Both the position numbers and the translations under genes were made by a program. This document shows, piece by piece, positions 1,023 through 7,710 of a stretch of 51,774 bases of DNA. Location: NCBI GenBank assembly GCA_024256165.1, contig JAKLZG010000025.1, positions 1-51,774 on the forward strand, read 5' to 3'. Positions within the stretch are counted from its first letter, which is position 1. The number at the start of each line of letters is the position of its first letter. The stretch comes from Candidatus Methylarchaceae archaeon HK02M2. Its GTDB lineage: Archaea > Thermoproteota > Nitrososphaeria > Nitrososphaerales > JACAEJ01. The notes beneath the pieces are model-generated. The model ran no database searches, was not told the origin of the DNA, and saw only the letters and a list, made by a program, of their open reading frames with translations.

Positions 1023-2107
1023 TTATGATTTTATATTAAAGATACTTTTGATAGATTCTTCATATGGTGGTAGCAATAATCCCTTATCCGTTATTATTCC
1101 AGTAATAAACTCTGGTGGCGTCATATCGAAGGCAGGGTTCAGCACCTTTATACCCTTAGGTGCTATCCTCTTTTCGTTTATCTTAACAACTTCTTCTACT
1201 CTTCTCTCCTCAACGATTACATCTTCATACTCAGTAGTTTGATCAAACGTTGAGATTGGTGCAGCTATATAAAAGGGAACTTTATGAATCTGAGCAAGTG
1301 CCGATATCTGGTATGTCCCTATCTTGTTAAAGGTATAACCAGACTTTGTTATCCTATCAGCACCAACTATTATTTTATCAATTAGTCCTTTTTGCATCAC
1401 ATAACCTACCATAGAGTCAGTTATCAGAGTCACAGGTATGTTATCGTTCTTAAGTTCAAAGCATGTTAGCCTTGCTCCTTGGAATGCAGGTCTCGTCTCT
1501 GTAGCTATAACCTGTACGCATCTTCCTCGCTCCCATGCCGCCCGAATTACCCCCAAAGCTGTACCATAACATACTGTTGCAAGTGAACCCGCACTCTGCT
1601 GACTTATTGAAAACTAAGTCATTTACAGTGGGTTAGCACTACATCTCCTTCTTCAAGGATTGTAATACCGTTTCTACCTATCGCATGGTTTATTTCCACA
1701 TCTTCTTCTGAAATTTGTAGAGCTTCATCTTTCACAGATACTTTCACATCTTCTAGCTCACCTTCGATTGATTTCGCTTTTTCAATGACCCTTTTAACCA
1801 TCCAAAATAAGTTCACTCCTGTTGGACGTGTCGCTTTAAGATTTCTTGCTACAACTTCAAGCTCTTTGATCAAGTCCTCTTTTGTTTTCGCCTTCGATTT
1901 TTGGGCAGCCAATCCAAGTGCCATAGCAGCAGCCACTCCTATAGCAGGCGCTCCTCTCACAGCCATATTTTTAATGGCTTCTACTATCTGAGGATAATCA
2001 TTGCACTCTATAAATTCTAATTTATTAGGCAACTTCCTTTGATCGATTAAGACTATGCTTTCGTCTTTCCAACTTATTGTCCTTTTAGAATATCCACTCC
2101 AGACCAT
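1023..2107 (-). CDS. mtnA: S-methyl-5-thioribose-1-phosphate isomerase, split by a 29-nt BHB intron
   Basis: MtnA of the aIF2B-like isomerase family converts methylthioribose 1-phosphate to methylthioribulose 1-phosphate in methionine salvage. The unspliced gene reads as two frames: 2107 down to a TGA after residue 162, and a second frame ending at 1023. Joining 2107-1623 to 1593-1023 gives 1056 nt, or 351 residues, the usual family length. The joined protein has RGAPAIG near residue 50, TRPTG, the catalytic motif HCNAGSLAT with Cys161, GADR with Asp241, NKIGTY and the C-terminal NPAFDMTPPEFI. The start ATG at 2107 is preceded by GGGAG. Some archaeal relatives act on ribose 1,5-bisphosphate; the motifs here fit MtnA better. 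Without splicing, the product would end right at the catalytic cysteine. Confidence 0.9.
1594..1622 (-). other. Putative archaeal (BHB) intron inside mtnA
   Basis: On the minus strand the 5' exon ends ...CAC TGT AA and the 3' exon begins T GCG GGT. The 29-nt insert starts with A, then a perfect 7-bp stem TGACTTA/TAAGTCA with an 8-nt loop. The flanks form a 4-bp central helix CTGT/GCAG (one G-U pair) between two 3-nt bulges, AAA and AGT. Cutting each bulge after its second nucleotide, the established EndA rule, joins TGT-AAT-GCG-GGT (C-N-A-G), the exact family motif. An outer AACCC/GGGTT pairing is possible across a small internal loop. The insert carries an in-frame TGA and is not a multiple of three, so it must be removed for a full-length protein. 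Confidence 0.85.
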
Positions 2108-3116: not shown

Positions 3117-4187
3117 ATATTAAGTAAAATAAAGGTCGCCATCGCTGGTGTAGGAAACTGCGCTTCAGCTCTAGTTCAAGGTGCGCATTACTACAGTAGC
3201 CTAGATAATGATAAAATACCTGGACTATCTTTTCTAACCCTCGGTGGTTACAAGATTAGTGATATTGAATTTGTAGCTGCTTTTGACATAGATGCTACGA
3301 AAGTTGGCAAAGACCTCTCTGAAGCCATATTTTCAGGGATGAATGATACAAGGCATTTTGCAAATGTACCCAAGCTTGATGTGACGGTGTCAAAAGGCCC
3401 AGTTATGGATGGATTTGGTAAATATCTTAAAGAAGTTTCGATCATTGCTGAAAAAGAACCTATTGATGTAGCACAAGTCTTAAAGGATACAAATGCTGAT
3501 ATGTTAATTAATTACTTACCAGTAGGTTCTGAGAAAGCCACACATTGGTACGCTGAACAAACTCTGAAATCGAGTTGTGCTTTCGTTAATTGTATGCCTG
3601 TATTCATAGCTTCAGACCCTGAATGGGCTATTCGATTCGAAGAGAAAGGTGTTCCAGTTGCGGGGGACGATATCCAAAGCCAGCTTGGTGCCACAGTACT
3701 CCATAAAACACTCGTGAATCTCTTAAATGAGAGAGGAGTAGTAATTGATGAATCTTATCAATTGAACGTTGGTGGTGACGCTGATTTCCTCAATATGTTA
3801 GAGCGTGAACGACTCCATTCTAAAGAAATCAGCAAGACTTCTGCAGTCAAAGCTATGGTACCCTATAATTTTCCAGTTAAAATAGGTCCCAGTGATTACA
3901 TACCTTTTCTCCATAATCAAAAGATATGCTATATCTATGTTAAAGGAAGATACTTTGGCGATAGTCCTCTTGCGATCAATCTAAAATTATCTGTGTGGGA
4001 TGCACCGAACTCAGCAGGTGTGGTCATGGATGTAATAAGAGGTGTGAAGCTTGCTTTAGATAGGGGTATTGGTGGTCCTCTGAATAGCATTAGTGCTTGG
4101 GCATTTAAACACCCACCAATTCATGCTCCAGCTTCAGTAGCAAAGCATTGGGTTGAGGAATTCATTAATAGTAAAAGGCTTCGATAA
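3117..4187 (+). CDS. ino1: myo-Inositol-1-phosphate synthase, noncanonical start
   Basis: The enzyme makes inositol 1-phosphate from glucose 6-phosphate using NAD, for inositol phospholipids. The frame encodes the Rossmann start KVAIAGVGNCASALVQG, then DIEFVAAFDIDATKVGKDLSEA, NYLPVGSE, FIASDPEWA, NVGGDADFLNMLERERL and DSPNSAGVV-like and ALDRGIGGPL motifs, matching the archaeal type of about 360 residues. No ATG, GTG or TTG lies in frame between the TAA at 3114-3116 and the Rossmann motif. The first in-frame ATG, at 3339, would delete the NAD-binding loop. I give the maximal frame; real candidates are ATA at 3117 or 3129. A run of six G at 3106-3111 could act as a ribosome binding site. Confidence 0.85.
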   Translation: MLSKIKVAIAGVGNCASALVQGAHYYSSLDNDKIPGLSFLTLGGYKISDIEFVAAFDIDATKVGKDLSEAIFSGMNDTRHFANVPKLDVTVSKGPVMDGFGKYLKEVSIIAEKEPIDVAQVLKDTNADMLINYLPVGSEKATHWYAEQTLKSSCAFVNCMPVFIASDPEWAIRFEEKGVPVAGDDIQSQLGATVLHKTLVNLLNERGVVIDESYQLNVGGDADFLNMLERERLHSKEISKTSAVKAMVPYNFPVKIGPSDYIPFLHNQKICYIYVKGRYFGDSPLAINLKLSVWDAPNSAGVVMDVIRGVKLALDRGIGGPLNSISAWAFKHPPIHAPASVAKHWVEEFINSKRLR

Positions 4188-4243: not shown

Positions 4244-4783
4244 TTGGTAGAAGAATTACCTTGCATATTAACTGGGCACTTATCAAAAAAAGGCGTCATA
4301 ATAGACGATAAGATAGCTATTGAAGAATTAGAAAATAGAGGCTATGGAGAGAGGGTAGATGGAAAATTCGTGTTAAAAGATTATGAAACTATATTTCTGC
4401 TATACAATGATATGATAAAAATATTTGAAGGAAAAAAAGAAATGTCTGTCAATAAGCTGGTGGATTATGCTATATCTAAGGACTCGAGTGCCTGGACCCG
4501 CTTTTTAATTTATAGAGATTTGAGGAGTCGGGGATATGTAGTTCGTGAAGGGTTTGGATTCGGGTTTGATTTTAGAGTTTACGATAGAGGCGAATATGGA
4601 AATAAATCAGCAAAATATGTTGCCTGTGGTTTAAATGAAGGCACAAAAACGCCTATAAAAGAGCTAAATGAGATTGTGAACCAGATAAAAATAATGGGAA
4701 AAGAAGCGGTTATAGCCGTAATAGAAAGACGTGGAGAGGTTATATATTATAAGATTCGGATCTGGAGACCTTACCAAGATTAG
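4244..4783 (+). CDS. endA: tRNA-intron endonuclease, catalytic His replaced
   Basis: EndA cuts BHB motifs in pre-tRNAs and other RNAs. The 179-residue protein has both family domains: an N-terminal part (GHLSKKGVIID...ELENRGYGERV) and a C-terminal nuclease part starting YRDLRSRGYVVREGFGFGFDF. The active-site Tyr (Tyr113, in DFRVYDRG) and Lys (Lys170, in IYYK) are present. The third residue, His in the usual HSKYLV, aligns with Ser122 in SAKYVA. That suggests either a structural subunit of an alpha2-beta2 enzyme with a second catalytic EndA elsewhere, or an altered active site. The start is a TTG at 4244. The gene lies 2 kb from the split mtnA and 1.5 kb from rtcB. Confidence 0.88.
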   Translation: MVEELPCILTGHLSKKGVIIDDKIAIEELENRGYGERVDGKFVLKDYETIFLLYNDMIKIFEGKKEMSVNKLVDYAISKDSSAWTRFLIYRDLRSRGYVVREGFGFGFDFRVYDRGEYGNKSAKYVACGLNEGTKTPIKELNEIVNQIKIMGKEAVIAVIERRGEVIYYKIRIWRPYQD

Positions 4784-6249: not shown

Positions 6250-7710
6250 TTACCCTTTTACAACACCCATAGGTATAAGCCTTGCCACTTTGGTCGCTAT
6301 TCCTACTTCATGGGAGACTTCTGCTACTGAGTCTACGTCTTTATAGGCTCCTGGCGCCTCTTCAGCAACACCTTTCCAGCTGGCTGCTTCAACGAGGATT
6401 CCCCTTTTCTTTAGTCTCCTTTTAATCTCATTTGCAGGATATGTCCTTATCGCTTTTGCTCTTGACATCATTCTTCCAGCACCGTGAGCAGTTGAGCCGA
6501 AGCTCACCTCCATAGCTCTGGAAGTGCCAAGGAGAGCCCAGCTAGCTGTACCCATAGATCCTGGTAAGAGTACAGGTTGACCTACATCTCTATAAGCACG
6601 AGGTATAGTAGAACTCCCTGATGGGAAAGCTCTGGTTGCGCCTTTTCTATGTACAACAAATTTCTTCTTCGATCCATCAAAGGAGTGCTCCTCAATCTTG
6701 GCTATATTATGAGCTACATCGTATACAAGCTTCATTCCAATATCTTTCTCTGGCATCTTAAAAACCTTCTCGAAAACATTTCTAGTCCAGTGAGTAATCA
6801 TTTGTCGATTACACCAAGCGTAATTTAACGCTGTTGCCATGGCCTTCATATAATCTTCAGCTTCTTTTGATTTATTTGGAGCGCATGCAAGCTCTCTGTC
6901 AGGAAGGTAGATATTGTACTTACGTACAGCGTTTTCCATAACCTTTAGATGATCGCTACATACTTGGTGACCAAAACCTCTTGAACCTGTATGGACTAAT
7001 ATAACGACTTGCCCAATTTGTAGCAAACCGAATCTTTTTGCAGCATCCTCATTGAATATATTATCCACTAACTGTATTTCGACAAAATGATTACCAGAAC
7101 CTAGACTACCTAATTGGGATAGCCCTCTCGACTTGGCCCTCGATGATACTTTATTTGGATCAGCATTCTCCATCGTACCATTCTCTTCACAGAACTCAGC
7201 ATCCTCGTCCCATCCATAACCATTTGAGATAGCCCACTTCACACCATCAGTGAGTACTTTATCTAATTGACTGACACTCAACCGGATTTGACCACGACTT
7301 CCAAGACCCGAGGGAATGGCTTTGGATAATTCTCTCAATAATTTTCCAAGGTTAGGTCGGACTTCTTTCTCTGTCAGATTTGTCTGGATCAGGCGAACTC
7401 CACAGTTGATATCATAACCAACACCACCAGGTGAAACAACACCTGTTTCAAGATCCGTAGCAGCAACACCCCCTATTGGGAAACCATATCCTTCATGACC
7501 GTCTGGCAAAACTATAACATGCTTATAAATCCCTGGAAGGTAACTCACGTTCACAGCTTGATCGATCGTCCTATCTGTAAGCATTTTGGTTAGAAGAGTC
7601 TCATCTGCAAAGATAGTTACGGGTACTCTCATACCATCTTTTGCATCGGTTCCGATACTATATTCTACGTCATTGATCTTTTTGATTGGATAGCGAAATT
7701 GTAGAGCCAC
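6250..7710 (-). CDS. rtcB: RNA-splicing ligase RtcB
   Basis: RtcB is the GTP- and Mn-dependent ligase that joins exon ends carrying 2',3'-cyclic phosphate and 5'-hydroxyl after EndA cleavage. The 486-residue protein has LPDGHEGYGFPIGG, the metal ligand Cys103 in GVGYDINCGVRLI, GSLGSGNHFVEIQ, HTGSRGFGHQV, LLPGSMGTASW and STAHGAGRMMSR with the guanylated histidine. It is full length and has no intein, although inteins are common in this gene. The start is the ATG at 7710. With EndA it provides the machinery needed for the tRNA-Ser and mtnA introns. Confidence 0.97.
   Translation of the reverse strand: MALQFRYPIKKINDVEYSIGTDAKDGMRVPVTIFADETLLTKMLTDRTIDQAVNVSYLPGIYKHVIVLPDGHEGYGFPIGGVAATDLETGVVSPGGVGYDINCGVRLIQTNLTEKEVRPNLGKLLRELSKAIPSGLGSRGQIRLSVSQLDKVLTDGVKWAISNGYGWDEDAEFCEENGTMENADPNKVSSRAKSRGLSQLGSLGSGNHFVEIQLVDNIFNEDAAKRFGLLQIGQVVILVHTGSRGFGHQVCSDHLKVMENAVRKYNIYLPDRELACAPNKSKEAEDYMKAMATALNYAWCNRQMITHWTRNVFEKVFKMPEKDIGMKLVYDVAHNIAKIEEHSFDGSKKKFVVHRKGATRAFPSGSSTIPRAYRDVGQPVLLPGSMGTASWALLGTSRAMEVSFGSTAHGAGRMMSRAKAIRTYPANEIKRRLKKRGILVEAASWKGVAEEAPGAYKDVDSVAEVSHEVGIATKVARLIPMGVVKG

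Follow-up and report, generated by a model that had tools for sequence, protein, structure and literature searches.

The gene mtnA of Candidatus Methylarchaceae archaeon HK02M2 carries, at the codon following that of its catalytic cysteine, 29 nt that break the reading frame and add a stop codon, which raises the question of how a complete S-methyl-5-thioribose-1-phosphate isomerase (MtnA) could be made from it. The gene is located in a stretch of 51,774 nt (the window; GCA_024256165.1, contig JAKLZG010000025.1), part of a genome assembly (G000) of 1.34 Mb in 91 contigs that is 96% complete. At a probability of roughly 0.93, the insert is an archaeal tRNA-type pre-mRNA intron, cut by EndA and joined by RtcB. 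This reading is based on the position of the insert, its conservation, the covariation of its stem, the restoration of the frame and the presence of the enzyme genes, and from these we infer the cutting and the ligation themselves. The parts of the gene and its two junction forms are as follows.

1623..2107, minus strand: mtnA exon 1, the N-terminal half of the isomerase to ...VLTHC plus the nucleotides AA (open reading frames, ncbifam)
1594..1622, minus strand: mtnA intron, 29 nt, ATGACTTAGTTTTCAATAAGTCAGCAGAG (exon joining, same-site relatives, consensus structure)
1023..1593, minus strand: mtnA exon 2, TGCGGGTTC..., the C-terminal half to the stop codon (open reading frames, ncbifam)
Predicted spliced junction, minus strand: ...CACTGTAA joined to TGCGGG...
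Unspliced junction, minus strand: ...CACTGTAAATGA...
Expected junction-spanning MtnA peptide: ...THCNAGSLATVCYGTALGVIR

Read without splicing, the frame of exon 1 stops at TGA 1621-1619 (minus strand), right after HC-K, and mtnA appears as two listed ORFs of 162 and 177 aa. Joining of the exons gives 351 aa, with ...VLTHC-NAGSLATVCYGTALG... across the junction; the product reads ...VLTHC-NAGSLATV..., restoring the active-site motif HCNAG. This placement of the gap is unique, as other shifts never give the same product. The spliced protein carries HCNAG and scores 398.9 bits against TIGR00512 (cut-off 279), placing it within MtnA, and its alignment with the best PDB match, 1t9k, runs through the junction unbroken. 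The original prediction had placed a frame-breaking, stop-adding insert of 29 nt at 1594-1622 on the minus strand, and its coordinates, length and frame proved exact; its claim that cutting both bulges after the second nucleotide yields HCNAGS and a protein of 351 residues was confirmed by the exon joining. A second intact mtnA, which it had named among the findings that would speak against an intron, was not found among the superfamily members of this genome. Two further members were identified, both scoring below the MtnA cut-offs and having no catalytic Cys; they possess THSYS or THSCS at the position of THCNAG in MtnA and are therefore not a second mtnA.

Interruptions at the same site are widespread among related archaea. 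A protein search of 61 related genomes identified a break in mtnA at the same residue in all seven genomes of the window's family and in other families, while in the remaining families the gene is intact and the insert precisely absent, which is the alternative of present or exactly missing that had been proposed for relatives. Scanning 85,462 species genomes (one per species) with a pattern gave 31 matches, of which 25 are in mtnA and archaeal by title or sequence; the other six are bacterial, outside mtnA and attributable to chance. The 25 include records titled 'Thaumarchaeota' or Nitrososphaerales, several 'Bathyarchaeota', HR01, and Ca. Methylarchaceae HK01M of the same genus as the window, and some intron-bearing records are titled merely 'archaeon' or 'uncultured archaeon'. 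Matches were present in 20 of 400 genomes in a scan of the class and in 6 of 398 in a scan of the phylum (reversed control pattern, 0), and an 80-genome protein search, covering about 70 families, brought in families f41, f56, f60 and f69 as well as further loci of f37. Altogether the tally of interrupted mtnA stands at 41 loci in at least 12 archaeal families, belonging to Nitrososphaeria, Bathyarchaeota, HR01 and other lineages of the phylum; nearly all genomes compared are metagenome assemblies. One intron-bearing record (L061, DAIDAB010000003.1) is labelled 'bacterium', and its protein falls among Nitrososphaerales MtnA; it is probably a mislabelled archaeal assembly.

The lengths of the inserts range from 19 to 43 nt (35 loci) and fall into all three classes modulo 3 (16, 15 and 4), so no single frameshift explains expression; only removal does. 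Removal at the predicted cuts, after residue 2 of each bulge, restored Cys-Asn-Ala-Gly at 35/35 loci and at 6/6 held-out loci, and left the frame open across the junction in every copy (in L187 and in L257, a held-out locus, a single stop occurs at another place in the alignment). With same-site inserts at 41 loci, a covarying stem and a frame that is always restored, the interpretation of the insert as an intron, put forward from the window alone, is strongly supported.

The elements at the junction of the window, all on the minus strand and given in transcript order, are as follows.

1625..1628, minus strand: central 4-bp helix, 5' strand CUGU (exon), pairing with 1596-1599
1622..1624, minus strand: 5' bulge AAA, 3 nt, predicted cut after the second nucleotide (1623/1622)
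1615..1621, minus strand: inner stem, 5' strand UGACUUA, including the in-frame stop UGA 1621-1619
1600..1606, minus strand: inner stem, 3' strand UAAGUCA, completing a perfect 7-bp inner stem
1596..1599, minus strand: central 4-bp helix, 3' strand GCAG (intron; consensus structure)
1593..1595, minus strand: 3' bulge AGU, predicted cut after the second nucleotide (1594/1593)

Judged alone, this hairpin is ordinary. Folding of the minus strand, which had been suggested as a check, returns the inner stem, but the junction has a z-score of only -1.41 (18/200 shuffles equally good), and its fold of lowest energy is a competing one built around that stem. Mechanical helix-bulge-stem motifs number about 110 per strand in the window and are as frequent in shuffles, and the significance of the single-sequence fold was discarded as an unconvincing argument. 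What exceeds chance is the exact frame-restoring position together with conservation and covariation in relatives. Among 34 distinct introns the central helix (exon CUGY, intron GCRG) is paired in 34/34 (100% of cells) and the first three pairs of the inner stem likewise in 34/34, with compensatory changes U-A/C-G, G-C/A-U and A-U/G-C; in every copy the 5' bulge has precisely 3 nt. All six inner-stem pairs show two-sided, compensatory changes, and RNAalifold recovers the 4-bp helix, the 3-nt bulge and the inner stem unaided. Taking ten pairs together, pairing reaches 95.0% of cells (84.0% when shuffled), two-sided changes number 48 (14.9 in shuffles) and covariation is 0.437 (0.218 shuffled; 0/500 shuffles as high), while slid controls pair in only 23-48% of cells.

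The helix outside the 3' bulge behaves differently. In the window it is imperfect, with an A.C mismatch followed by 5 bp, and in the aligned relatives 61.2% of its cells are paired (62.0% shuffled), without covariation. A strict (canonical) BHB would have a paired outer helix beside the 3' bulge; because this helix is unconserved in relatives, the mtnA element does not qualify as one and is classed as the relaxed HBh' form. Of the BHB motif originally described, the 4-bp helix, the 3-nt bulges and the perfect 7-bp stem are retained and the strict form is replaced by HBh'.

A covariance model trained on the 34 distinct mtnA introns found matches in 18 of 398 genomes, one per genome. Six of these loci were outside the training set and all passed the splice test: the central helix is paired at 4/4 positions, the inner stem has 5-9 bp, and removal gives back NAG and a full-length match. 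The held-out intron of G511 is identical to that of G491 in the training set, leaving five independent sequences.

Other explanations of the split gene have to be weighed against these data. In a genome of 91 contigs, an indel and a stop codon seen once would look just like a frameshifted pseudogene arising from sequencing, assembly or recent mutational error; the same-site interruption of 41 loci in independent assemblies from at least 12 families refutes this, the two exons have remained conserved and covariation is seen in the stem, and error is now hardly credible. Translational bypassing, known from phage T4 gene 60, would let the ribosome hop over the insert of an unspliced RNA, and would tolerate any insert length; a hairpin downstream of the stop codon is indeed present. 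Bypassing requires matched take-off and landing codons, however, and while the codon before the gap is TGY, the GCN on the 3' side is never preceded by TGY in any copy; the conserved geometry is moreover that of a splicing endonuclease substrate. We regard hopping as highly improbable. The two callable ORFs (162 and 177 aa) would also be expected if the halves were separate genes with assembling products and no need of splicing, but the earliest start of the second half in the window is TTG 1556, past the conserved AGSLATV, and the break falls inside the HCNAG motif itself. Separate genes would leave the precise frame-restoring boundary in all copies unexplained, and there is very little chance that they account for the arrangement.

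Splicing as an intron would require an endonuclease and a ligase, for which two candidate genes are located in the window.

4244..4783, plus strand: EndA-family gene without the active-site His motif (PF01974; TIGR00324, 68.1 bits, cut-off 59.6; PDB relatives)
6250..7710, minus strand: RtcB-family RNA ligase, candidate exon ligase (ncbifam RtcB families, scores below cut-off)

The former is likely the beta (structural) subunit of the splicing endonuclease; the scores of the latter lie under the family cut-offs, the models being of intein or bacterial type. A second EndA gene of the genome is catalytic, with the motif GIDHAPYLV, is closest to 2cv8 and shares HAPYLV with the S. tokodaii enzyme. 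One EndA with and one without the His motif fits an (alpha-beta)2 enzyme, a type reported in Thaumarchaeota (PMC4090602) and one of two reported to remove relaxed motifs efficiently (PMC6379350). Two EndA-family genes occur in most genomes checked, and none of the 25 genomes in the first scan is without one. Judging from its gene content, the host appears to encode both RtcB and an endonuclease capable of cleaving relaxed motifs. Matches of 100-117 nt to tRNA models in G000 (those of 105-117 nt at C73:22463-22579, C43:10721-10837, C15:22881-22990, C8:25015-25122 and C69:17644-17748) suggest that the host has tRNA introns; ARAGORN did not model non-canonical tRNA introns at these long loci, and the evidence for them is therefore match length only.

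In the proposed mechanism, the mtnA transcript would fold at the junction into the 4-bp helix of exon CUGY and intron GCRG, a 5' bulge of 3 nt and a stem internal to the intron. The (alpha-beta)2 tRNA-splicing endonuclease would cut each bulge after its second nucleotide, and RtcB would ligate the exons to TGY-AAY-GCN, restoring HCNAG; the excised intron is probably circularised. The unspliced message would keep an in-frame stop a few codons from the catalytic Cys, apparently maintained by selection.

In this reading the intron is of old origin in Thermoproteota-type archaea or entered the same site there more than once; many lineages would have lost it, or never gained it. On the best tree of 90 MtnA proteins it needs at least 10 changes, six of them forced by well-supported branches. 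A single clade of intron-bearing proteins was rejected (AU p ~1e-101); the tree appears compatible with one gain followed by many losses, with several gains and with gene transfer, and does not separate them. The base before TGY is C in 41/41 intron-bearing copies and in 25/47 intronless ones (Fisher 9e-8); a tree-aware test of this gave 2:0 pairs (p 0.5, too few pairs).

A stop in the frame of exon 1 was found in 37 of 39 distinct introns, compared with 8 and 13 in the other frames. Most of these stops are the UGA, UAG or UAA opening the inner stem, and such stem-opening stops alone could reflect chance plus common descent. Twelve introns do not have one, and ten of these possess an interior in-frame stop (1 and 1 in the other frames), where 3.2 are expected on loop shuffling (P < 5e-5, relatedness ignored); by family the count is 5/6, with a binomial probability of ~0.007 at the shuffled rate, in a test devised after the data were seen. 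We infer that these stops keep the unspliced message from being translated past the intron, the excess suggesting selection against its translation.

It could be added to the intron reading that splicing efficiency sets the level of MtnA and methionine salvage, the intron acting as a conserved post-transcriptional control element with a selected stop that couples salvage to the tRNA-splicing machinery. Both counts of in-frame stops (37/39, and 10 of 12 with 3.2 expected) favour this, as does the endonuclease-subunit gene near mtnA in most intron-bearing genomes. The conserved stop is equally compatible with simple quality control, however, endA and mtnA are also widely found as neighbours in intronless genomes, and many relatives manage without the intron; both the regulatory switch and the control element are unlikely. 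If true, making the enzyme would require that EndA cut the message and RtcB rejoin it, with one EndA subunit encoded beside mtnA.

Many genomes of the phylum, with or without the intron, have the EndA-family beta gene beside mtnA or close to it, frequently in divergent orientation (in the window, 4244-4783 on the plus strand and 1023-2107 on the minus strand; also G006:C17, G437:C26, G016:C1, G654:C24 and others). Among intron-bearing genomes the adjacency was seen in nearly all Nitrososphaeria and in the two Bathyarchaeota checked. A linkage between intron and endA beta was rejected, since the adjacency also occurs in intronless families (f6, f11, f13, f15, f36 and others) and is missing from some that bear the intron (f37, G491 and G022); it looks like an old shared gene order. 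Also in this region (~3117-4187, plus strand), an inositol-1-phosphate synthase-like gene has a reading frame that stays open ahead of its first ATG (3339), running through ...ILSKIKVAIAGVGNCAS as far as a stop immediately before 3117. No ATG, GTG or TTG was found before ...ILSKIKVAIAGVGNCAS in this frame of the window, and the gene likely uses a non-standard start codon.

No link between mtnA and an intron was found in the searchable full-text literature (subscription papers and preprints lie outside it), where cbf5 is the only archaeal protein gene found described with a conserved EndA-type intron; within that literature, the suggestion that the intron may be undescribed holds. The tRNA machinery probably splices mRNA more widely than has been assumed, and gene callers will split or discard intron-bearing genes in metagenomes. 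With its many gains or losses, mtnA offers a natural comparative set for how archaeal mRNA introns arise and persist, and for whether unspliced messages are guarded by in-frame stops.

Several known systems resemble the mtnA intron in part. The HAC1/XBP1 mRNAs contain a short intron removed without the spliceosome and joined by tRNA ligase, the unspliced product being different or shorter. The mtnA intron shares with them its short length, its non-spliceosomal nature and, as predicted, tRNA-ligase-type joining, but theirs is cut by the stress-activated Ire1 and not by EndA, a regulated cut for which mtnA offers no evidence. Archaeal rRNA BHB sites and introns use the same endonuclease and ligase chemistry as is predicted for mtnA; there, rRNAs are excised and circularised, whereas the mtnA exons would join into a coding frame. 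Closer still are tRNA introns of the relaxed HBh' form, which have the 4-bp helix, one well-formed 3-nt bulge and an inner helix, and are cut by (alpha-beta)2 EndA (PMC6379350), as proposed for mtnA. Unlike these, the mtnA intron lies in an mRNA, without a tRNA body aiding recognition, and both of its exon strands are also constrained as protein code.

The pre-mRNA intron of cbf5 in Sulfolobales and Desulfurococcales, with a cut predicted between bulge residues 2 and 3 and splicing shown by cDNA in several species (PMC2738675), is likewise small, located in a conserved protein gene and mostly of unconventional BHB structure. Hetero-oligomeric endonucleases, conserved borders with a variable interior and patchy losses are common to both, and the predicted cut between the second and third bulge residues of mtnA agrees (PMC2738675). 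In the 14 mtnA-intron genomes tested cbf5 is uninterrupted and the cbf5 intron was not found. The two differ in gene and insertion site, and the mtnA intron has a much wider family range, occurring in Nitrososphaeria, Bathyarchaeota, HR01 and others rather than in Sulfolobales or Desulfurococcales; splicing of cbf5 was seen in cDNA, while that of mtnA is predicted from DNA. The mtnA intron would accordingly be filed within the known class of EndA-spliced archaeal pre-mRNA introns, as a second such gene, interrupted at the active site of a metabolic enzyme in at least 12 families outside the cbf5 lineages.
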